Positions 44,752 through 55,295 of a stretch of DNA of 64,000 bases are shown here, in pieces. The translations under genes and the position numbers were made by a program. The number at the start of each line of letters is the position of its first letter. The stretch's first letter is position 1. This DNA comes from Taklimakanibacter albus (lineage in GTDB: Bacteria > Pseudomonadota > Alphaproteobacteria > Rhizobiales > Aestuariivirgaceae), in assembly GCF_016595235.1 (NCBI RefSeq), contig NZ_JAENHL010000007.1:496001-560000 (forward strand). The letters run 5' to 3'. Below the pieces are notes generated by a model. That model was not told the origin of the DNA and made no database searches. It saw nothing but the letters and a program-made list of their open reading frames with translations.

Positions 44752-45393
44752 TCACTTGAGTTGATGCGGCCGCGGCGCTGTCGCCGCGAAGCTGGCGCGT
44801 CCCTCGAGTGCACCGACAAGACGCTCCATTTGCGCCCGCCCGCGCCAAGCAATCCGGCCACGCGATTCCGACCACAGGATGAAGGCCGCGAGAGCGATGT
44901 CTTGAACGCTCACATGGCCGGACTGGAAGGCACCGTTCCGCATGCGCCTCTCCAGCCAGTCGAGTGTTCGAAGGGCCCGCACCATATTGCGCTCCGCCGG
45001 ATCGAAGCCGAGCCGGTTGCGATCCACTGGTCCGATTCCCGCCCATTTCGCATAGTGATGGGCGGCGAGCGCATCGCCCATGGCAAGAATGACGGCCAGA
45101 TCCTGCTCATCCTCGGTCCGATGATCGGGGCGGGCTATTGTGGCCGCGACGCCCTGGGCTGGACCGTTCACGCGCGCCAGGAGAGCGTCGATGGCGATCC
45201 TGGTCGGAAAATGCGCGACGCCATCGGCCATCATGACCGGTACTTGGCCGAGCGGATTGATGTCGAGGAAACTGTCCGAAGGTGGGAATTCGGCCAGCTC
45301 GATCTCCCGCATCACGACCCCATGCTCGCGCGCCAGGATGCGCACGATCCGGGCGAAGGGCGAACCGTCAATATAATGGAGATCCAGCGACAT
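44752..45393 (-). CDS. Glutathione S-transferase
   Basis: A 213-residue GST. The thioredoxin-like N domain starts LDLHYIDGSPFARIVRILAR and contains the cis-proline turn LGQVPVMMADG. The helical C domain has VSVQDIALAAFILW, the N-capping and hydrophobic staple motif. The Ser in GSPFAR is at the position of the catalytic Ser/Cys of beta- or nu-type enzymes. Substrate is unknown. The gene ends exactly at the convergent SIS stop, and folB lies 11 bases upstream on the same strand. Confidence 0.9.
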   Translation of the reverse strand: MSLDLHYIDGSPFARIVRILAREHGVVMREIELAEFPPSDSFLDINPLGQVPVMMADGVAHFPTRIAIDALLARVNGPAQGVAATIARPDHRTEDEQDLAVILAMGDALAAHHYAKWAGIGPVDRNRLGFDPAERNMVRALRTLDWLERRMRNGAFQSGHVSVQDIALAAFILWSESRGRIAWRGRAQMERLVGALEGRASFAATAPRPHQLK

Positions 45394-45404
45394 CGATACC
45401 GAGG

Positions 45405-45809
45405 TTAGTCGCGCAACCTTTCGATTTCAACGCCGACGCTGCGCGCATTGGGAATGACGTCCGGCTTCTCGATGCGTACTCTGGCCGCCATCACGCGTTT
45501 ATCACGCAGACAGGCGGCGGCGATGAGCTCGGCCAGGGTTTCGGCGAGGCCGACATGGCCTGCCGACACGATCTCCTCGACCTTGCGCACCACGATCTCG
45601 TAGCTCACGACATTCTTGATGTCGTCGCTCAAGGGATCATCGCCCTCCTTCACCGAAAGGTCGATATTGACGACGATCATCTGCGGAGTGGTCTTCTCCT
45701 CGGGATAGATGCCGAGAAGCGCGTTCACTTTCAGGTCCTTGACGAAGACATGACGCAGACGCGCATGGCCGCTCGCCACGTGGTGGGTGATCTTGACTTC
45801 GTTGCTCAT
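45405..45809 (-). CDS. folB: Dihydroneopterin aldolase
   Basis: Folate-pathway enzyme that splits dihydroneopterin to hydroxymethyl-dihydropterin and glycolaldehyde. 134 residues with VKDLKVNALLGIYPEEKTTP near the start, the catalytic-region VSYEIVVRKVEEIV and VRIEKPDVIPNARSVGVEIE at the end, all typical. It is four bases after the SDR gene and probably co-transcribed with it. No folE, folK or folP is nearby. Confidence 0.93.
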   Translation of the reverse strand: MSNEVKITHHVASGHARLRHVFVKDLKVNALLGIYPEEKTTPQMIVVNIDLSVKEGDDPLSDDIKNVVSYEIVVRKVEEIVSAGHVGLAETLAELIAAACLRDKRVMAARVRIEKPDVIPNARSVGVEIERLRD

Positions 45810-45812
45810 CGC

Positions 45813-46583
45813 CTATTCTTTCACTTCGGTGACATCGCGGGTCTGCCACAGGAGATGCTGGCCGCCATCGAGAACGATCATTTGCCCGGTCATTGCCGGG
45901 GCCGATAGTATGTATTTTACCGCAGAGGAGATTTCCTCCGGCGACGTGCCACGCTTCAGAAGCGTCAGCCGCATCTGCCGCGCGAAATCCTCTTCATCCA
46001 TCCGCACATTGGGCAGCGCCGGCCCCGGCCCGATGGCATTGACCCTGATGCGCGGGGCGAGCGCTTGCGCCAGCGTCCGCGTCACCGTCCACAGCGCCGA
46101 CTTGCTCGCCGTATAGGAGAAGAATTTCGGCGTCAGCTTCCACACCCGCTGGTCGATGATGTTGATGATATTGCCCGAGCTATCGGCCGGCAGTTGCGCC
46201 GCGAAATGCTGCGACAGGAAGACCGGCGCCCTGAGATTGGTGTCGAGATGGGCAGCCCAGCTGTCGAGCGTCACCGAACCCGCCTCATCGGGCTCGAAGC
46301 GCGACGCATTGTTGACGAGGCAGGTCAGCGGCCCCAAAGCCGCGACGGCTTCGGCCACCAGCCGTTCCGGTACTTGCGCTTCGGCGAGGTTTCCCTGGAC
46401 GATCACCGCGCTCCCACCCGCCGCTTCGATTTCGGATTTGAGCGTCCCGGCATCATGTAATGAGGTGTTGCAATGGATGGCAACGGCCCAGCCGTCGCGC
46501 GCGAGGTCGAGGGCGATACATCGCCCGATCCGGCGCGCCGCGCCAGTGATCAGGACGGCGCCGCTGTCGCGTCGTACAGTCAT
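45813..46583 (-). CDS. SDR oxidoreductase, pteridine-reductase-like
   Basis: A 256-residue short-chain dehydrogenase. The cofactor loop is LITGAARRIGRCIALDLA, whose TGAARRIG form is typical of FolM/pteridine reductases. NNASRFEPD and the catalytic SYTASKSAL (Tyr and Lys) follow. Its placement directly before folB supports a role in reducing dihydropteridines. An ordinary fatty or sugar SDR cannot be excluded from sequence alone. Confidence 0.85.
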   Translation of the reverse strand: MTVRRDSGAVLITGAARRIGRCIALDLARDGWAVAIHCNTSLHDAGTLKSEIEAAGGSAVIVQGNLAEAQVPERLVAEAVAALGPLTCLVNNASRFEPDEAGSVTLDSWAAHLDTNLRAPVFLSQHFAAQLPADSSGNIINIIDQRVWKLTPKFFSYTASKSALWTVTRTLAQALAPRIRVNAIGPGPALPNVRMDEEDFARQMRLTLLKRGTSPEEISSAVKYILSAPAMTGQMIVLDGGQHLLWQTRDVTEVKE

Positions 46584-46599
46584 TCGAATTCAGAAACCT

Positions 46600-47331
46600 T
46601 CAAGGCTGCTCGAGGAGCGGAGAGCACTCTGTCTGGAGCAGATCGGGATAGATGTCAAAGCCGCGCATAAGGAATTTGACGCGCAGGCCATAGGAGGTGA
46701 TCTTGCAGCGGCTGACCGCCACCGGCACCGAGGCCGCGACATAGTCCGGAAAGAACAGGCCACGGCCGCTCAGGATCGACCAGGCTTCGTTGAAATTGCT
46801 GGCGCGGATGCGGAAGTAGATGCTGTTCTGGTCGGTGCACGGCAACGCGTGGCAGCCTTGCACCGAATGCTCGTTCTCGTGCGGCAGGATTTCCTGCGAG
46901 TTGGTCAGATAGACCACCTCATCATGCTTCACGGTGGTGAGATAGAGAACGGCATGAAAGAGAAAGACGATCAGCGGAATGAACAGGTACCAGGCGAAAC
47001 CCGCCGACACGGCGAGGAAAATGCCGGCGCGCGTCTTGGAGAATTGCCGCTCCTGGTATTTGTCTTCGTAATAGACGGCCTTGTCCCAGAGCAGCCGATA
47101 GAGATGCCAGAGCCAGGTGATGGGCTTGAACAGGACACGCGCCACCGGCCGCAGGATATGCGTGTAGATCCACGACAGCGCCAGGACGAACTGGAACAGG
47201 AACTTGTGCAGCGCCGTCAGATTATATTGGGTCCGTCCCGTCCACGAGCGCGAATTAACCTTGTCCCGTTCCTCGGCCCGCCCTTCGACCTTCTTTTTCA
47301 GCGCCTCGACCTCGTCGCGCAGCGTGCTCAT
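46600..47331 (-). CDS. Two-helix membrane protein of the Clp-like operon
   Basis: A 243-residue protein I cannot assign to a family. A short charged coiled-coil-like start (MSTLRDEVEALKKKVEGRAE) is followed by hydrophobic spans at about 41-66 and 102-134, with an aromatic amphipathic segment between (TWLWHLYRLLW). The C-terminal 105 residues are soluble with four cysteines (160, 165, 209, 236), perhaps two disulfides if outside. Translation is coupled to the Clp-like ATPase gene by a 4-base overlap. It is the last gene of the operon and the likely membrane anchor or target. Confidence 0.7.
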   Translation of the reverse strand: MSTLRDEVEALKKKVEGRAEERDKVNSRSWTGRTQYNLTALHKFLFQFVLALSWIYTHILRPVARVLFKPITWLWHLYRLLWDKAVYYEDKYQERQFSKTRAGIFLAVSAGFAWYLFIPLIVFLFHAVLYLTTVKHDEVVYLTNSQEILPHENEHSVQGCHALPCTDQNSIYFRIRASNFNEAWSILSGRGLFFPDYVAASVPVAVSRCKITSYGLRVKFLMRGFDIYPDLLQTECSPLLEQP

Positions 47332-49484
47332 GTCTCTTTGATCTCGAAAGCCTGGCGCTTCGGATTATAGGCGAGATCGAGCTTGCCGCGTTTGTCGCTC
47401 TCCAGGATCATATTGACGATGATCGGCTCGATATTCGCCTGGATGAAGCCCGGCAGGCCGCGGGCGCCGATCGCCGGATCATAGTGATCCTTGCAGAAGG
47501 CCTTGAGATCGGCCTCCGGCACCGTGACCTTGATGCCCTCCTGGGTATAGGTGCGGTCGATGCTGTCGAATTCGCGGCGCACGATCTTCTCGATCGACGG
47601 CAGGTCGAGCTTGTTGAAGCAGATGATGTTCTGCCGGCCGGCGAAGCGGTTGAGGAACTCCGAGCGGTAGGTCTTCTCGATCTCGCGGATCGCTTCGGCA
47701 TTGGCCTCCTCGACGGTGAGCTTCGGATTGAGGAAATGCGGCTGGCCGATATTCGTCGTCATGACGATGATCGCGTCGGAGAAGGAGACGGTGCGCCCGA
47801 CATTGTCGGTGAGCCGGCCGTCCGACAGGATCTGCAGGAAGACGTTGAAGACGTCGGGATGCGCCTTCTCGATTTCATCGAAGAGCAGGATGCGCAGTGG
47901 GTTCTTGCGCATGGCATTGGTCAGGATGCCGCCGGCCTCGAAGCCTTCATAGCCGGGCGGCGCGCCGATGAGCCGCGAAACCGCGTGTTTCTCCATATAT
48001 TCCGACATGTCGAAGCGGGTGAGCGCCTTCTCGTCATCGAGCAGGCTCGCCGCCAGCGCCTTGGCGATCTCGGTCTTGCCGACGCCCGAGGGACCTAAGA
48101 ACATGAAGGAGGCCTGCGGCTTGTCCTGGTTGCGCCGGCCCACCCGGGCGGTCTTGACGGCATTGGACAGCATGCGCACGACATGGTCCTGGCCGAAGAT
48201 ACGGTTCTTGAGTTCGGTCTCGAGATTGCGCAGCTTCTCCCGCTCGTCCTCGTTGAGCTTGCTCACCGAGATGCCGGAGATCTGGCTGAACTCGCGCAGC
48301 ACGATCTCGCGCGTGAGCTCGAGATGATCGTTGAGCTCCTTGGTGAGGGCGTCGAAGGCCGTGCGGTTCGTCGCGATCTCACCCTGGAATTTCTCGATGC
48401 GGCCGCGCAGGTCCCTGACCTCGTCGGATTCGATCCCGGCGCCGGTGGCGAGACGCGCAAATTTGGCGATGCGTCCGGTAATCTCGCTGACCTGATTGTC
48501 GGGAGATTTCCGCGCCTCGGCTTCCGTCGCCACCTGCTTGTCGAGCTCTTCCTCGAGCTCGAGCACGGCGATCTCGCCGTCACGCTGGCGCTTGTAGAGC
48601 GATTTGATCTTCTCCTGGCTCTCGGTCCAGCGCGCCAAGGACTGCGCCATGGCGGCTTCCGCCGCGACGACCTGCTGCTGGTCCTTGGCCGATTTCCTCG
48701 CCGCTTCCGCCTCGGCGAGCCCAGGGGCCTTGCGATGGGCGCCGAGCCTGTAGGTGGCGAGCGCCCGGTCGATCAGCGAAACGCTGCGTTCGGGCTGCGC
48801 CCGGCTCATGCCGGCGTCGCGCGAGCGGTATTTGGAGGTGAGTTCGATCGCGGTGCGGGTCGCGTTTTCGGCGATGCGGATGCGGTGGAATTCGTTCAGA
48901 TGGCCGGCCCGTTCCGAGACGATCTGGAACAGGGCGTCGCCTTCGGGTTCCGCCAGATCGACGAGAGTGAACAGCTCCCTGAGGTCCGAATGGCTCTTCA
49001 GGATGATGTCGAGATCCTCATCGCGCGCTTCGAGGATGACTTGCGTCCGCTTCGACTTGATGGCGAGGCAGAGCGCATTGATGAAATGCAGTGTGCCGAT
49101 ATTGCGCGCCGCCTCGATAAAGTCGCGCGTATCTTCGATGATCAGCACCGAGTCGGGCGTGCGATCGAGCGTGGCCATGATCCGCTGGAAGGAATCACGG
49201 ATGACGACGGGATCGCCTGAAGAGAACAGGGCGTCGGTGTCGAGCCAGAAGAAACGCTTGTTGACGATGTCGAAAGGCGCATCCGGATCATGCTTGCTGG
49301 CCTGCAGCCCCATGCACAAGGCCGTGCAGCCGACGCCGCCCGGCCCCACCAGCAGCACGGAATTCGCCATGTTGCGGACCAGGATCGACGACAGCTTCTT
49401 GAGTTCGCTGTCGCGCCCGACCAGGCGGAATCTCGGCGCCTTGGCCAGATAGTCTTCCCCGCGGGTGAGAAAACTCATCACCAT
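47328..49484 (-). CDS. ClpB/ClpA-like double AAA+ ATPase with degenerate first ring
   Basis: A 718-residue HSP100-type protein with no Clp-N domain. Ring 1 (about 20-245) has Walker A GPGGVGCT (47-54) with Cys53 for the lysine, and LIIEDTRDF (114-122) where DE is normal, so it should not hydrolyse ATP. A long charged coiled coil (about 255-400) stands where ClpB has its middle domain. Ring 2 is intact: GPSGVGKT (464-471), pore loop GAPPGYEG (507-514), Walker B LLFDEIEKAH (533-542), sensor 1 MTTNIG and sensor 2 GARGL. aggag six bases before ATG 49484 fixes the start. It is the middle gene of a three-gene operon. Confidence 0.88.
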   Translation of the reverse strand: MVMSFLTRGEDYLAKAPRFRLVGRDSELKKLSSILVRNMANSVLLVGPGGVGCTALCMGLQASKHDPDAPFDIVNKRFFWLDTDALFSSGDPVVIRDSFQRIMATLDRTPDSVLIIEDTRDFIEAARNIGTLHFINALCLAIKSKRTQVILEARDEDLDIILKSHSDLRELFTLVDLAEPEGDALFQIVSERAGHLNEFHRIRIAENATRTAIELTSKYRSRDAGMSRAQPERSVSLIDRALATYRLGAHRKAPGLAEAEAARKSAKDQQQVVAAEAAMAQSLARWTESQEKIKSLYKRQRDGEIAVLELEEELDKQVATEAEARKSPDNQVSEITGRIAKFARLATGAGIESDEVRDLRGRIEKFQGEIATNRTAFDALTKELNDHLELTREIVLREFSQISGISVSKLNEDEREKLRNLETELKNRIFGQDHVVRMLSNAVKTARVGRRNQDKPQASFMFLGPSGVGKTEIAKALAASLLDDEKALTRFDMSEYMEKHAVSRLIGAPPGYEGFEAGGILTNAMRKNPLRILLFDEIEKAHPDVFNVFLQILSDGRLTDNVGRTVSFSDAIIVMTTNIGQPHFLNPKLTVEEANAEAIREIEKTYRSEFLNRFAGRQNIICFNKLDLPSIEKIVRREFDSIDRTYTQEGIKVTVPEADLKAFCKDHYDPAIGARGLPGFIQANIEPIIVNMILESDKRGKLDLAYNPKRQAFEIKET

Positions 49485-49503
49485 TCCCTGCTCCTACGAA
49501 CCT

Positions 49504-51186
49504 CTAGTGCTGGCCCAGCTTGAACGGCGATGGCGTGGCGCCGGTCGCCTCCGGCTCCGCCACCCTCTCTTGCGGACGTGCGACATCGGCGTGGACGCCG
49601 ATCGCATCATGCACATCGCCCTGCACGTCCTCGGCGAGCTTCTTGAGCTCATCGAGCTTGGCGCGCATGTCGGTGAGGCCTTCGCGCGTGATATTGGTGG
49701 CGGCGCGTACCACCTCGCCATAGGCGCCGAGATCGTCGATCGCCTTGGCGAGGTCGGTGTTCTGCTCCTCGATGCCCATGGCGATGCGGATGCTCTCCTT
49801 CTGCGCCACCTTGTTGGTGTTCTCCGCCATCTGCTGCAGCGTATCCTTGGCCATGGCCGAGGCCTCGCCCAGAGCCGCCGAGGAAACCGCCTGGAGCACG
49901 ACGCTCAAACGATCGGCGACACCTGAGATACCCTGGCTGTGCATGGCGCGCGCTTTGATCGCCTGCTGATCGACGGCATCCTTCATCGTCTTGATACGAA
50001 TGGCCCCCGACGTCAGGTCGGCATAGGTCGCCATCGTGTCGGCGGCGGAGGCATCGAGCATGGTGATATGCTGCTCGACCGCCATCTTCTTCTGCTCGCG
50101 CGCCATTTGCGCGATCATGTCTTCGCTGCCCGGTGCCGGCGGCTGCAGCGCCTCACGGGTTTTCAGATTGGCGTCAGCCGCTTCCTTGATGCCTTCGTTC
50201 ATGATGGCATAGACCGTGCCCATCATATTGTTGGCGTCGAACAGATTCTCGACCTGGTCGTTCATTTTGTTGAGATGCCCGCGCACCGAGCCGACGCGGG
50301 TCTTGGCCGTGTTCACGAAATTCACCGCCGCGTCGACCAGGTCCTTCTGGCGCTGCTTGTGATCGTCGGCGCTGATGTCGAGGAGCTCGCGCAGTTTCTT
50401 CTTCTGCTCGACATATTCGCCGAGCTCGCTCTCCGTCGGGGTCTGCTGGTCGAGCTGATGAAGCTCGTCCGACAGCTTGTCCAGCGAGTCGACGACCCAT
50501 TTCAGCTCTTCATTCTTGCGCGCGATCGCGATACGGGCCTCTTCCTTGACGCCGCCAAGGCCGAAGAAACTGCGATTCTCGCCCAGCGCCGCGATGTCGG
50601 AATGGATATCCTCGACCGAGGATTTGAGCTGCTTGAACTCCTGCTGCTTGGCATCTTTGATACGCAGAAGCTCCTCCTCGCGCTTTCTGTCGCGCAGGAT
50701 CTCCTGGAAGGCGTCGAGCGTCAGGCCGTTCGTGCGCAAAGTATAGACCGCATCGATGATGTCGGTCAGCGGCTGCATCCGCTCGTCGAACTGGATCAGC
50801 GAAGTGTTGAGGTCGTCATAGACCTGCTTCAGCTCGGAGAACGTGCCCGTATCGGTAAGCCGGATGATCTCCTGCGCCATCTCTTCGCGCTGGCTCTGGA
50901 GATATTCCTTGAACAGCTCGAACTCCTTGATGCGTTCGCGATTCTGTTCCTTCGTGCCCTCGAAGGTGAGGAGCTTGGCGACTTCCTCGCGCTTGGCCTC
51001 AGGCTTGGTGTTCTCGGCGAACATCACCTTGAAAAAGCTGTTGGCCGAGATATTGGCGAAGCGCGGATCGGCGCTGACCTCGGTCTTGGCGGCCTTGCTT
51101 ACGTTCTCGCGTGCCCGCACCGCTGTGGTCAGGATATCGGAGACGTCGGGCTTCTGCTGAAGTTTCGGCTTGGCGGCGTCGGCCAT
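49504..51186 (-). CDS. Large coiled-coil protein of the Clp-like operon
   Basis: A 560-residue, highly charged, almost wholly helical protein of no family I recognise. There is no signal peptide or membrane span. Heptad-like stretches cover about 70-130, 165-215, 235-320 and 345-530, broken by SFFGLGGVKEE near residue 205 and PPAPGSED near 350. The C-terminal half (AADTMATYADLTSGAIRIKT; VVRAATNITREGLTDMRAKL) vaguely recalls TelA-like or chemoreceptor helical bundles. Its length and low complexity suit a filament or adaptor. It is first in the operon, 19 bases before the ATPase. Confidence 0.75.
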   Translation of the reverse strand: MADAAKPKLQQKPDVSDILTTAVRARENVSKAAKTEVSADPRFANISANSFFKVMFAENTKPEAKREEVAKLLTFEGTKEQNRERIKEFELFKEYLQSQREEMAQEIIRLTDTGTFSELKQVYDDLNTSLIQFDERMQPLTDIIDAVYTLRTNGLTLDAFQEILRDRKREEELLRIKDAKQQEFKQLKSSVEDIHSDIAALGENRSFFGLGGVKEEARIAIARKNEELKWVVDSLDKLSDELHQLDQQTPTESELGEYVEQKKKLRELLDISADDHKQRQKDLVDAAVNFVNTAKTRVGSVRGHLNKMNDQVENLFDANNMMGTVYAIMNEGIKEAADANLKTREALQPPAPGSEDMIAQMAREQKKMAVEQHITMLDASAADTMATYADLTSGAIRIKTMKDAVDQQAIKARAMHSQGISGVADRLSVVLQAVSSAALGEASAMAKDTLQQMAENTNKVAQKESIRIAMGIEEQNTDLAKAIDDLGAYGEVVRAATNITREGLTDMRAKLDELKKLAEDVQGDVHDAIGVHADVARPQERVAEPEATGATPSPFKLGQH

Positions 51187-51272
51187 CTGGTGTCCCTCCT
51201 GACAGAATGTCGCAGGGGCACATATAGGGGGGAAGCCTCATGCCGTCCAGCACTGCGCACACAGAAATTTGT

Positions 51273-51304
51273 GCAACACCGGCCCTTGTAGGGACCGGCG
51301 TTGC
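51273..51304. terminator. Stem-loop between the cupin and coiled-coil genes
   Basis: gcaac-a-ccgg-ccct pairs with aggg-a-ccgg-c-gttgc around tgt: 13 pairs with one mismatch and one bulge. On the minus strand it follows the cupin stop by 40 bases and ends about 85 bases before the coiled-coil start. It probably ends the cupin transcript, isolating the Clp-like operon. It lacks a clean T-tract. Confidence 0.45.
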
Positions 51305-51343
51305 ATCACACATACTAACGTTTAATCGCGATCCGACACTGCC

Positions 51344-51706
51344 TTATTTCGGCGTCAGAATCACATAGTGCTTGCGCACCTTCTCGACCGTTTCCCAAGT
51401 TCCCTTGAAGCCCGGCGGAATGATGAAGCCATCGCCGGCCTTCAGCGTCCACTTCTTGCCCTTGTCGTTGGTCAGGATGGCCTTGCCTTCGATGAAGTGG
51501 CAGAACTCCCATTCGTTATAAGCCACCTTCACCTTGCCCGGCGTCGATTCCCAGATGCCCGAATATAGCCGGCCCTTCTCGCCCTTATAGTGGTTCCAGG
51601 TCTTGGTCTTGTACGGTCCCTTGAGGAGCGTCGGTCCACTGCCCTGCCCCTTCTCGACCTTTGGCGCTTTTGCGCCCGTGGTTTTCATGACGATGATGTC
51701 AGCCAT
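51344..51706 (-). CDS. Small cupin-domain protein
   Basis: A 120-residue single-domain cupin of the DUF861 type. The core (SGIWESTPGKVKVAYNEWEF, then CHFIEGKAILTNDKGKKW and AGDGFIIPPGFKGTWE) has the two beta-barrel motifs. Of the usual metal ligands only the Glu (NEWEF) and a His (CHFIEG) are seen, as expected for this subgroup. Relatives are (S)-ureidoglycine aminohydrolase-like or of unknown role. It is probably transcribed alone, lying 48 bases downstream of cca. Confidence 0.85.
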   Translation of the reverse strand: MADIIVMKTTGAKAPKVEKGQGSGPTLLKGPYKTKTWNHYKGEKGRLYSGIWESTPGKVKVAYNEWEFCHFIEGKAILTNDKGKKWTLKAGDGFIIPPGFKGTWETVEKVRKHYVILTPK

Positions 51707-51754
51707 TGTGATCTCCTCTTGTCTGGCTTGATTTGAAACGGATGGGTGCCGCTG

Positions 51755-52975
51755 TCAGCCTCTGGCCTCCAGCTTGTGCAGGAGGGTCTCTTTGTTTTCG
51801 GTAAAGTCCGACGCGATCCACCAGTCTTCGAGTCGCTCCAATTCGCGGCCGAGATCCGGTCCTGGCTTGAAGCCATGCGCCAGGAGATCCTGTCCGGAGA
51901 GCGGAAAGCGCGGAATGATCCATTGATCGGCGAAATCGAGAAGCGCTCTCCAAGCCGTGCGGTCGACCCGGGTCTCCGATTGTGCCCAAGCGAGCCGGAC
52001 CTGATCGCGCCAGGTCGCCGGGCCAAGCCGATAGAGCACCGCGCGGCGTTCCTTGTCGCGCAACGACGGATGCGGTGAAGTATGGCTCGCGATCGCTTCG
52101 AGGCGTTTCATTTCCGCATTGGTGAGGCGCAAATGCTCGCGCAAGGCGAACGGCGACTTGGCGATGAGGATGAGCCGCAAGAGCGCGTCGGGAGCGAGGC
52201 CTTGCACGGCATCGATCTTCGCCATGCGGACAAAAGCGCTCAGCTCCGCGAGAGGCGTGAACAGCATCTTCAGCACATTGCGGGCGGCCATCAGCTTGAT
52301 TGTCTCGCTCGCCCGCTTCGCTTCGAGCAGCTTGAACAGTTCCTGGCGAACGCGCTCGCTTGAGAGTTCCTTAAGCTTGCCCTTGTATCTGATGCAGGCG
52401 GCAAGCCCCTTGGGATCGGGCGCGCCGGCACCATATCGCGCATGGAATCGGAAGAAGCGCAGGATGCGCAGATAGTCCTCCTTGATGCGCGCCGCGGGCT
52501 CGCCGACGAACCTGACTCTTTTTCTTAAAATATCCGGATAACCCTTTGTAGGGTCATATATTTTCCCATCTCCTGAACAATAGAGCGCGTTCATGGTGAA
52601 ATCGCGCCGGCGCGCATCCGCTTCCCAATCGTCGGTGAAGGCGACACGTGCCTTGCGACCATAGGTTTCGACATCGACACGCAAGGTCGTCACCTCGAAG
52701 GGTTTACCGCCGGTGACCAGCGTAATCGTGCCATGGGCGATGCCGGTCGGATGCACACCGAGACGGGCTTTCTCGCCGGCCGCGATGATGCGCTCGGGCG
52801 TCAGCGTCGTCGCGATGTCGATGTCGTTGATCGGCTCGCCGAGCAGCGTATTGCGCACCGCGCCGCCGGCGACACGCGCCTCGCCGCCCGCCGCCGCGAG
52901 GGCGTCGAAAACCCGGCGCAAGGCCGCATCCTTGAGCCAGGGCTCGGAGCTGAGGGAAGGCAATGTCGTCGTCAT
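51755..52975 (-). CDS. cca: CCA tRNA nucleotidyltransferase or poly(A)-polymerase-like
   Basis: Class II nucleotidyltransferase that adds or repairs CCA on tRNA 3' ends. 406 residues. The head has GGAVRNTLLGEPINDIDIAT with the metal-binding DID. Motifs B and C follow: RRRDFTMNAL, then the RNA-binding KEDYLRILRFFRFHARYG. The C-terminal 180 residues are helical neck and tail. The ATG overlaps the stop of the CoA-pyrophosphatase gene by four bases, a usual alphaproteobacterial order. Confidence 0.95.
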   Translation of the reverse strand: MTTTLPSLSSEPWLKDAALRRVFDALAAAGGEARVAGGAVRNTLLGEPINDIDIATTLTPERIIAAGEKARLGVHPTGIAHGTITLVTGGKPFEVTTLRVDVETYGRKARVAFTDDWEADARRRDFTMNALYCSGDGKIYDPTKGYPDILRKRVRFVGEPAARIKEDYLRILRFFRFHARYGAGAPDPKGLAACIRYKGKLKELSSERVRQELFKLLEAKRASETIKLMAARNVLKMLFTPLAELSAFVRMAKIDAVQGLAPDALLRLILIAKSPFALREHLRLTNAEMKRLEAIASHTSPHPSLRDKERRAVLYRLGPATWRDQVRLAWAQSETRVDRTAWRALLDFADQWIIPRFPLSGQDLLAHGFKPGPDLGRELERLEDWWIASDFTENKETLLHKLEARG

Positions 52976-53604
52976 GGCGCGCGATAGAGACGGTCGTAGA
53001 GATTCATGATCATGCCGGCGGTGGCCCCCCAGATATACCTTTCACCATAGGGCATGGCATAAAAATATCTCTGCTTGCCCAACCATTCGCGGCTGTGCCG
53101 CGCATGGTTTTCCTGGCTCATGAGAAATCTGAGCGGCACCTCGAAGACGGCGGCGACTTCGCCCTCATGCGGTGCCAGCACGAAACCCGGTTTGACCAGC
53201 GCCACCACCGGCACCACATGGAAGGAGGTGCGGGTCAGATAGGCGTCGAGAAAGCCGATCGGCTCGATATAGCTCTGATCGAGTCCTGTTTCCTCGCGCG
53301 TTTCGCGCAAGGCGGCGGCGAGCGCATCCTCGCGTGGCTCGATCTTGCCGCCCGGAAAAGCGACCTGGCCGGCATGGCTCGCCAGATGATCGGTGCGCTG
53401 GGTGAGGAGCACGGTGAGCTCCGGCTCATGCAGCACGATCGGCACCAGCACCGCGGCGGCGCGCCGGGCCTTCAGCGGATCGATGGCCTTGAGATCGGGA
53501 TTGAGATCATCGTCGCTGCGCGCCACGGCCTCAGGCGCGTCTTTCAGAAGCCGCGTCGCGGCGCGTGCGCGGACTTCCGCCTCGTCGAACCTGAAATCAT
53601 CCAT
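52972..53604 (-). CDS. NUDIX CoA pyrophosphatase, NudL-like
   Basis: A 210-residue NUDIX hydrolase. The UPF0035 signature TDHLASHAGQVAFPGG precedes and merges into the NUDIX box GGKIEPREDALAAALRETRE followed by ETGL, with all the Glu ligands. Family members cleave CoA and its derivatives to 3',5'-ADP and phosphopantetheine. It is coupled to cca downstream, and its ATG shares a base with the DUF1285 stop upstream. Confidence 0.93.
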   Translation of the reverse strand: MDDFRFDEAEVRARAATRLLKDAPEAVARSDDDLNPDLKAIDPLKARRAAAVLVPIVLHEPELTVLLTQRTDHLASHAGQVAFPGGKIEPREDALAAALRETREETGLDQSYIEPIGFLDAYLTRTSFHVVPVVALVKPGFVLAPHEGEVAAVFEVPLRFLMSQENHARHSREWLGKQRYFYAMPYGERYIWGATAGMIMNLYDRLYRAP

Positions 53605-54194
53605 CAGGCGACTGCACCGATTTCAGCGGCGCGCTGCATCGGCCAGAAGCGGCCGGCCGACCACACGCCGAACCAGTCGCCCTCGACCGTGCCGAGCGCC
53701 ACCAGGTCATAAAACAGCGCCCGCGAAACCAGCGCCTCGAGCCTTCCCCGCACCAGCACATAGGGCTTGAGACCTTCGGTCCCCGCCTCGACCGCCACGC
53801 GCATCGGATGCGTAGCGTCAATTGTGACAATGTCGTCGGTATTGGTCTCGAAGGTGATCGACTGATCGCGCCCCTTGCCCTCGACGCTCATCCTGATGGC
53901 GACAAAGGGGGCGTCATCGACCCGGATGCCGCATTTTTCGACCGGCGTGACGAGATAATACTTCCCGTCCTCGTCATGCCTCAACACCGAAGCAAAGAGC
54001 TTCATCAAGGGTTTGCGGCCGATCGGCGAGTTCAAATAGTACCACAGGCCGTCCTGCGCGATACGCATGTCGATATCGCCGCAAAAGGGCGGGTTCCACA
54101 AATGGACCGGCGGCATCCCCTTCTTGCCCGAGGCGCGCTCGGCCTCTTTCAGGCCGGCCAGGGGGTTGCCCGCGTCGCGCTCCGGCTTGGTCAT
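53604..54194 (-). CDS. DUF1285-family protein
   Basis: A 196-residue protein of the DUF1285 family. Landmarks are WNPPFCGDIDMRIAQDGLWY, YYLNSPIGRKPLMKLFASVL and KYYLVTPVEKCGIRVDDAPF. Its fold is known from structural genomics as two beta domains, but no activity is assigned. The ATG at 54194 is the only good in-frame start. It heads the DUF1285-nudL-cca operon and is divergent from the MoxR gene with a 102-base shared region. Confidence 0.9.
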   Translation of the reverse strand: MTKPERDAGNPLAGLKEAERASGKKGMPPVHLWNPPFCGDIDMRIAQDGLWYYLNSPIGRKPLMKLFASVLRHDEDGKYYLVTPVEKCGIRVDDAPFVAIRMSVEGKGRDQSITFETNTDDIVTIDATHPMRVAVEAGTEGLKPYVLVRGRLEALVSRALFYDLVALGTVEGDWFGVWSAGRFWPMQRAAEIGAVA

Positions 54195-54296
54195 GATAAG
54201 GCCATGCTTGTTCACAAGGATTTCATTAACGGATTCGGCATTTGGCGCACCAGATTTGGTTTCGCAACCGACCATGCCCAAACTATAGTGAGCCCC

Positions 54297-55295
54297 ATGG
54301 CAAGCATCAATGAAGCTGAAAAGCATATTGTTTCCGAACTCGACCAGATGGCCGGCCGCCTGGAGAAGGTGCGTGAAGCCATCGGCAAGGTGATCTTCGG
54401 CCAGTCCGAGGTCATCGACCTGTCGCTCACCGCCATCCTGGCCGGCGGCCATGGTCTGCTGGTCGGCGCGCCGGGCCTCGCCAAGACCAAGCTCGCGACC
54501 ACCCTCGGCCGCGTGCTGGGCCTCGAGGAGAAACGCATCCAGTTCACCCCCGACTTGATGCCTGCCGACATACTGGGCTCGGAAGTGCTCGATGAGAGCG
54601 AACATGGGCGCCGCCAGTTCCGTTTCGTGCCCGGGCCGGTCTTCTGCCAGCTTCTGATGGCCGACGAAATCAACCGCGCCAGCCCGCGCACCCAGTCGGC
54701 CCTGCTGCAGGCGATGCAGGAGCATCACATTACCATTGCCGGTGTGCGCCATGACCTGCCACGCCCCTTCCACGTGCTCGCCACCCAGAACCCGATCGAG
54801 CAGGAAGGCACTTATCCCTTGCCGGAAGCCCAACTCGACCGCTTCCTGGTCGAGATCGACGTGCCCTATCCGGCGCTCGATGCCGAGCGGCGCATGCTTT
54901 TCGCCACCACCGGCACCGAAGAGGACGAAGCTCAGACCGTGCTGACCTCCGGCGAGTTGATGAAGATCCAGCATCTCGTCCGCCTGATGCCGGTCGGTGA
55001 GCAGGTCGCCGACGCCATCCTGTCGATCGTGCGCGCCGCCCGCCCTGGACCCGACGCCGATGAATTCGTCAACAAGACCATCGGCTGGGGCCCGTCGCCG
55101 CGCGCCAGCCAGGCCTTGATGCTGGGCGCCCGTGCGCGCGCCTTGCTCGGCGGCCGGCTGTCGCCCTCCATCGACGATGTGCTCGCTCTTGTCGGTCCGG
55201 TCTTCCGCCACCGCATGGCGCTCACTTTCACGGCACGCGCCGACGGCGAGACGATCGACAGCGTGATCGCCCGCCTGAAGACACGGCTGAGCTGA
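54297..55295 (+). CDS. MoxR-family AAA+ ATPase
   Basis: A 332-residue AAA+ chaperone-like ATPase. Walker A is GAPGLAKT near residue 60, Walker B LLMADEINRA, then RTQSALLQAMQEH and the sensor ATQNPIEQEGTYPLPEAQLD. A C-terminal lid domain follows. MoxR proteins load metals or assemble complexes together with von Willebrand proteins. Here the DUF58 and two VWA-type membrane proteins follow in one operon. It starts the plus-strand run. Confidence 0.95.
   Translation: MASINEAEKHIVSELDQMAGRLEKVREAIGKVIFGQSEVIDLSLTAILAGGHGLLVGAPGLAKTKLATTLGRVLGLEEKRIQFTPDLMPADILGSEVLDESEHGRRQFRFVPGPVFCQLLMADEINRASPRTQSALLQAMQEHHITIAGVRHDLPRPFHVLATQNPIEQEGTYPLPEAQLDRFLVEIDVPYPALDAERRMLFATTGTEEDEAQTVLTSGELMKIQHLVRLMPVGEQVADAILSIVRAARPGPDADEFVNKTIGWGPSPRASQALMLGARARALLGGRLSPSIDDVLALVGPVFRHRMALTFTARADGETIDSVIARLKTRLS

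Follow-up and report, generated by a model that had tools for sequence, protein, structure and literature searches.

A conserved cassette of a coiled-coil protein, an HSP100-type ATPase and a membrane protein in bacteria and very large phages

The window analysed here, a stretch of 64,000 nucleotides from Taklimakanibacter albus (contig NZ_JAENHL010000007.1, positions 496,001 to 560,000, in a genome of 7.17 Mb and 9 contigs), carries on its minus strand three closely spaced genes for a coiled-coil protein (CC), an HSP100-type ATPase (ATP) and a membrane protein (MEM). We asked whether these genes form one system, where else that system occurs and what it may do. The genes are as follows.

49504..51186, minus strand: CC, the first cassette gene, for a coiled-coil/helical protein of 560 aa
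47328..49484, minus strand: ATP, 718-aa HSP100/Clp-type ATPase with a degenerate D1, a linker and an intact D2, without a Clp N-domain
46600..47331, minus strand: MEM, 243-aa membrane protein, overlapping ATP by 4 bases

Three genes kept in one order

The coordinates of the open reading frames (ORFs) agree with the original prediction, made from the sequence of the window, which had described three minus-strand genes with 19-base and minus-4-base spacing and an SDR gene 16 bases downstream. The stop codon of CC is followed after 19 bases by the start of ATP, four bases (ATGA) are shared by ATP and MEM, and 16 bases separate MEM from the SDR gene. Since M3 of the window ATPase is the invariant Met of the ATPase family, the true start may be at 49478, in which case the CC-ATP gap would be 25 bases. 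Relatives of all three proteins, with 19-99% identity to those of the window, stand elsewhere in the same order, so the three ORFs are not a product of chance. That CC, ATP and MEM constitute one conserved cassette kept in one order is well supported.

A scan of 84,980 species genomes, based on the CC alignment, revealed at least 32 CC loci in records titled Alpha-, Gamma- and Deltaproteobacteria, a lower bound because the scan used one degenerate pattern. Isolates with a CC locus include Mameliella alba, Plastoroseomonas hellenica, Halopseudomonas and Gilliamella. An ATPase of the family followed CC in all 32 loci (two of them cut off inside the ATPase gene) and MEM came after it in 27 of the 29 loci long enough to tell, both misses being Gilliamella. 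The wider profiles contain many of the rows that they find, and the profile with the window as its sole bacterial row is therefore the more independent test; it found 26 of the 27 MEM genes, while the one in locus L109 was found with the wider profile. Clustering of the flanking ORFs, which were naive longest ORFs and not gene calls, indicated that no further neighbour is shared widely; the largest remaining cluster (4 of 32 loci) consisted of minus-strand ORFs overlying the cassette. The original prediction had staked itself on the three genes occurring together in other genomes, and co-occurrence proved to be near-total. The alignments A4-A6 omit near-copies and truncated or split copies, such as L087, L113 and L115, and A6 also omits L088, L089, L096, L106 and L108.

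In Gilliamella wkB171 (L115:3844-9708) a CC-ATP pair was observed behind an apparent groEL, identified by eye, and no MEM was found at this locus; the MEM of this strain may have been lost or replaced.

The cassette is also carried by phages. Agrobacterium phage Atu_ph07, an isolated phage of 490 kb, encodes CC, ATP and MEM with 40.6%, 51.5% and 39.8% identity to the window proteins, respectively, and three annotated genes lie between its ATP and MEM. Its ATPase (AUZ95251.1, PHROG 4871) is annotated as 'ClpB/ClpA' while its CC and MEM are annotated as 'hypothetical protein'. Eighteen further IMG/VR records carry the family, giving a total of 19 virus records, one of which (L018) is nearly a copy of another (L006). 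CC precedes ATP in all 17 virus records that extend that far and MEM was found in 19 of 19, once as a fragment at a contig end; the trio is retained in phages even with other genes between its members. Among the 16 virus records tested (54 to 519 kb), 10 contained a large terminase above the cut-off and eight a sheath match at E <= 0.001, two of these above the cut-off. One or the other marker (sheath at E <= 0.001) was present in 11, and the phage nature of the five records with neither rests on IMG/VR. In one record of 381,886 bases (G062, locus L008) the gene for Nampt is split over both contig ends, which suggests a complete, circularly permuted genome.

Anatomy of the three proteins and of the upstream region

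The features of the proteins on which the argument draws are listed below.

49323..49346, minus strand: Walker A of D1, degenerate (GPGGVGCT), without the lysine in all 41 family rows
48072..48095, minus strand: Walker A of D2, intact (GPSGVGKT), with the lysine in all 41 rows
47874..47891, minus strand: Walker B of D2, intact (ILLFDE), with DE in all 41 rows
49507..49530, minus strand: C-terminal tail of CC, SPFKLGQH, candidate recognition peptide
46930..46986, minus strand: probable transmembrane helix of MEM, a strongly hydrophobic segment with its peak window at residues 116-134 (Kyte-Doolittle)
46603..46929, minus strand: C-terminal domain of MEM, about 110 residues with four cysteines, probably periplasmic

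ATP had been called a Clp-like or HSP100 ATPase from the sequence, and its scores for AAA_2 (187 bits) and ClpB_D2-small (42.5 bits), both above cut-off, confirm membership of the HSP100/Clp AAA+ proteins. The lysine of the D1 Walker A is replaced by Cys in 23 of the 41 rows, by Val in 7 and by other residues in the remainder, and 36 rows carry the aromatic pore motif GYEG. In 37 of 41 rows the D1 Walker A begins at residue 41-62 (the other four were missed by the pattern), so the ATPase lacks a Clp N-domain; Clp_N was absent among the best 25 of 30 Pfam families for the window ATPase. The [IL]G[FL] loop is the ClpP contact of proteolytic Clp unfoldases, and a tripeptide resembling it was found in only 2 of 41 rows. 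Seven other viral Clp proteins, chosen for having at least one such Walker A motif, keep the lysine in both rings. A 962-aa viral Clp-like frame (L024:1259-4144) has an intact D1, matches the window ATPase from residue 2 and is perhaps a sister line with a live first ring. Two draft genomes (L088:1641-3823 and L106:7822-10154) have the ATPase broken into two frames, by sequencing error or by decay.

Both partner genes had been described originally as belonging to no recognised family, and neither the window CC nor the window MEM matched a Pfam or NCBIfam family above cut-off. CC had no match in PADLOC and weak matches in PHROG (best E 9e-4). Its best conserved stretch lies near residues 427-469, and the protein ends in a variable linker and a short tail; 35 of 45 rows have PF among their last 11 residues, and 39 of 45 have a looser form of the tail. 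Comparison of the CC profile with solved structures gave nothing convincing, the best match (E 6e-4) covering 53 residues of an oxidoreductase subunit. A likeness to TelA (PF05816), noticed by eye from a motif, was rejected by profile comparison, since the hhalign probability was 0.2% against 0.1% and 0.2% for reversed controls; TelA was also absent from the three families of the window CC and from the best 25 of 32 weak families for 14 CC members.

The window MEM had no match in PADLOC or PHROG, and a possible assignment to CysZ/EI24 (PF07264) was discarded (26.5 bits against a cut-off of 32, in 1 of 15 members). The original description of MEM as a two-helix protein holds for its being a membrane protein but is loose as to the number of helices: one strong hydrophobic segment is found in nearly every row, the second segment of the window protein (residues 38-56) is only marginal, and a cysteine domain follows. 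The cysteines C160/C165 and C209/C236 are kept or lost as pairs in 42 of 42 rows, related rows not being independent, with the pattern CCCC in 35, --CC in 4 and ---- in 3. Disulphides C160-C165 and C209-C236 would produce this pattern, and the C-terminal domain of MEM is probably periplasmic and disulphide-bonded.

Three elements lie upstream of CC.

51272..51305, minus strand: stem-loop showing compensatory changes, located between CC and the cupin gene
51260..51273, minus strand: near-palindrome CACAAATTTCTGTG, 14 bases, beside the stem-loop, identical in four related copies
51222..51250, minus strand: promoter-like block pair CTGGACG, 14 bases, CCCTATAT, invariant in four related copies

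The stem-loop had been placed at 51273 beforehand and was recovered at 51272-51305. Over four related copies, one of them that of the window, 91% of the cells are paired compared with 38-45% when the partner is slid, and four pairs change on both sides, a number reached by 14 of 500 shuffles. The count of further pair types was not above that of shuffles (314 of 500 reach it), and a search of window positions 45000-53000 gave no Rfam match at gathering scores. The CTGGACG-N14-CCCTATAT pair weakly resembles a heat-shock sigma promoter, and a good match to such a promoter also lies upstream in locus L100.

Distribution, history and possible role

Among relatives of the window genome the cassette is rare: of 59 other relatives searched, three had it, all from the same genus, as did 1 of 384 other genomes of the class sample and none of 397 others of the phylum sample. 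The closest named relatives by CC identity are Rhizobiales bacterium Y(2018) (99%) and Taklimakanibacter lacteus (88%), and both share with the window the neighbour order nudix-cca-cupin-cassette-SDR-folB, from which the host is probably a Taklimakanibacter-like alphaproteobacterium of Aestuariivirgaceae. In a fourth relative of the same genus (G004, 87% complete) CC and ATP were not found, and the stretch from cupin to SDR still shows the last 90-120 bp or so of MEM (L192:3266-3457; score 105 against a maximum of 46 in 200 shuffles). This relic rules out an ancestral empty site and points to loss by deletion, which shows that the cassette can be dispensed with. In G008, which belongs to another genus of the family, the matched parts of cupin and SDR stand 17 bases apart with no relic, likely the state before the cassette arrived; the 186-base cupin-SDR spacer of G009 likewise contained no MEM relic (score 37, shuffle maximum 56). 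Integration at tRNA sites was rejected, tRNA genes being present in 4 of the 22 loci scanned. Carriage by plasmids was rejected as well, as neither CC (window or Halopseudomonas copy) nor MEM had a match in 72,556 plasmid records, a search that did not include the ATPase. Elsewhere in the window, a plus-strand ORF at 53808-55295, which by a motif resembles a MoxR-type AAA+ ATPase, is unrelated to the cassette.

The rooted ATPase phylogenetic tree, which was built quickly and has long branches that meet near the root, placed the window copy in a starred group with 15 phage rows among its 20, and the phage row L016 beside bacterial rows. In the CC tree, which is unrooted and omits L016 and L117 as long branches, 21 bacterial rows formed a group of their own, and the starred branches force at least three changes between phage and bacterium labels; a single phage clade was rejected (p-AU 2e-45). 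Because the trees mix phage and bacterial rows, the cassette has moved between phages and bacteria repeatedly, with phages or bacteria as possible first source. The original prediction did not anticipate these repeated moves or the giant-phage homologues, nor the scar that a deletion left in a sister species or the domain with paired cysteines.

For the function of the cassette we tentatively favour, at a little short of even confidence, a membrane-tethered remodelling machine with CC as its client, most likely used in conflict between phage and host or between phages. MEM would anchor the complex in the inner membrane and expose its cysteine domain to the periplasm. In the ATPase hexamer D1 would serve as a rigid or regulatory ring while D2 would thread and remodel its dedicated client CC, which the ATPase would find through the PF-containing tail. 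CC would assemble under the membrane and the ATPase would dismantle or reset its assemblies. At the cell envelope phages could use such a machine during infection to exclude rivals or to blunt host defence, and bacteria with a captured cassette could turn it against incoming phages.

The membrane setting is supported by sequence features. Remodelling of CC by the ATPase at the membrane is what we infer from anatomy, since it would fit a degenerate D1, an intact D2 with a pore motif, the lack of an N-domain and of a conserved ClpP-loop-like tripeptide, and the conserved tail of CC. The reading as a whole draws support from co-retention of the trio in order across bacteria and phages, and from the combination of a lost D1 lysine with an intact D2, paired cysteines and a conserved CC tail. 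It is further supported because Atu_ph07 is an isolated phage, terminase or sheath occurs in virus records and the trees mix phages and bacteria, and because Nampt lies near the cassette, which in bacteria is dispensable and patchy. A part in phage conflict is plausible though unproven, and the bacterial contexts lend it no special support.

The neighbourhoods bear on that role. Scans of 10 and 63 of the 112 listed phage ORFs, again naive longest ORFs, showed flanks with NAD+-salvage genes (Nampt, NMNAT and PnuC), RNA ligases, tRNA-His guanylyltransferase and tRNA nucleotidyltransferases. Nampt counters NAD+ depletion by the host. According to the excerpts available of one study, phages likewise rebuild NAD+ against such depletion through the enzyme pair Adps and Namat (PMC12774641). 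Of the 11 records with a Nampt gene, 4 have it no more than 5 kb from the cassette (expected 0.59, p 0.0011 under uniform placement), for a gene chosen after it had been seen nearby and with a p value that ignores relatedness and the clustering of auxiliary genes; its proximity would amount to guilt by association only. The way in which Nampt was chosen is one of several points that weigh against a conflict role. The phage neighbours also include replication genes (clamp loader, DNA ligase and helicase). The pair rIIA-rIIB stands directly downstream of MEM in one phage record (G065, L011:8103-12680), and rIIA as a constant neighbour was rejected, as it adjoins the cassette in 1 of the 7 records having it, with distances taken by hand. 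No clear defence island surrounds the bacterial copies as judged with PADLOC from 139 of 151 listed flanking proteins, a scan from which 8 loci, ORFs below 150 aa and those inside the cassette stretch were set aside. The best 25 of 42 PADLOC families in these flanks, a tally with no control set, included mad2 (6 proteins), PDC-M72A (3), Ankyrin (3) and, with one protein each, AbiEi, AbiEii, type I and type II methyltransferase and DEDDh models. Finally, in Gilliamella the cassette stands behind a groEL gene and lacks MEM.

A more novel reading, possible but rather unlikely, is a stand-alone envelope guard of an undescribed kind, in which a pseudo-ring HSP100 motor at the inner membrane would cycle a CC polymer beneath it and the disulphide-bonded periplasmic domain would sense an incoming tail tube or DNA; it would serve superinfection exclusion in phages and immunity in bacteria, which would have captured it several times.

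A role in stress and proteostasis we regard as unlikely. Here a membrane-tethered ClpB-like disaggregase would rid the envelope of misfolded proteins, CC would act as its adaptor and the periplasmic domain would sense damage, and giant phages would use it to keep the cell alive. The HSP100 engine, the promoter blocks invariant in four related copies with the good match in L100, and the position behind groEL in Gilliamella all fit, and the excerpts of the Atu_ph07 paper contain a similar proposal for its Clp proteins (PMC6102473). However, shuffles reached the promoter score in no more than 10 of 100 cases for only 4 of 28 upstream regions, which leads us to reject general heat-shock control of the family; the lost D1 lysine and missing N-domain are unlike ClpB, and nearly all sampled relatives do without the cassette.

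It is improbable that the trio is a membrane-remodelling or pore system in which CC would polymerise on the membrane, the ATPase would disassemble it and MEM would nucleate it. ESCRT-III and PspA polymerise on membranes, and Vps4 disassembles ESCRT-III-type polymers; CC is long with its best conservation in one stretch, and MEM looks like a membrane protein, but the CC profile matched no solved structure of ESCRT-III or PspA type, its best hit being the oxidoreductase subunit mentioned above.

Least probable is a tool for phage assembly or takeover, aiding virion assembly or protein movement at the membrane and repurposed in bacteria after capture, for although translocation or virion assembly has been proposed for AUZ95251.1 (PMC7824862, in excerpts) and phage copies dominate the ATPase clade of the window, no head or tail structural protein occurred among the best 25 of 79 neighbour families or in the smaller 10-ORF scan (the sole mention of tails being one RNA ligase family also named for tail-fibre attachment), and the separate grouping of the 21 bacterial CC rows argues that the bacterial cassette is not simply a recent phage leftover.

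Comparison with known systems

In bacteria as in some very large phages, a specialised Clp motor is accompanied by two families with no named relative in the libraries searched. Should the motor act on its partner at the membrane, this would be a new use of HSP100 proteins and a direct test case for control of the host envelope by giant phages; the cassette also makes 'hypothetical' genes of isolated phages and bacteria open to study.

The nearest described protein is AUZ95251.1 of Atu_ph07, a relative from the same cassette with CC and MEM nearby. Accounts of it, as far as their excerpts go, name the ATPase and not its partners: one describes a ClpA-type AAA+ protein that may translocate proteins or aid virion assembly (PMC7824862), while the other lists it as ClpB gp492, leaves CC and MEM unnamed and suggests that the Clp proteins keep the infected cell alive (PMC6102473). 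Six potential Clp ORFs are mentioned in excerpts on a Sinorhizobium jumbo phage (PMC11242549). No description of the trio was found in the open-licence literature searched by titles and abstract starts; to that extent the original claim of an undescribed three-gene system stands, the ATPase being known singly from phage papers.

TelA, of the TelA/Ter stress and phage-exclusion systems, is said in excerpts to form sub-membrane structures that prevent phage entry (PMC7824862); CC has no profile relation to TelA, which was found in none of 40 related genomes. With the components of known anti-phage systems in PADLOC, CC and MEM gave no match, and ATP matched 9 models through its ATPase domains, PDC-M37B and DolB best.

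ClpV (TssH) of type VI secretion is an HSP100 ATPase that works on a dedicated assembly. The window ATPase differs from it in its score (329.3 bits against a cut-off of 885) and in having no neighbours widely shared outside the trio. ClpA and ClpC are strongly similar in D2, but the ClpP-loop-like tripeptide is rare in the family and the ClpA score is 390.9 bits against a cut-off of 993. The group of ClpB/Hsp104 includes the solved relative that scores best by sequence (1qvr, E 6e-96) and shares the D1-linker-D2 order and the lack of a conserved ClpP-loop-like tripeptide. The window ATPase nevertheless falls below the ClpB equivalog cut-off (400.6 against 1232.1 bits), the absence of the D1 Walker A lysine from every row would leave it without the two active rings of ClpB, and its family is set apart by the missing Clp N-domain and by its fixed partners, CC and MEM.
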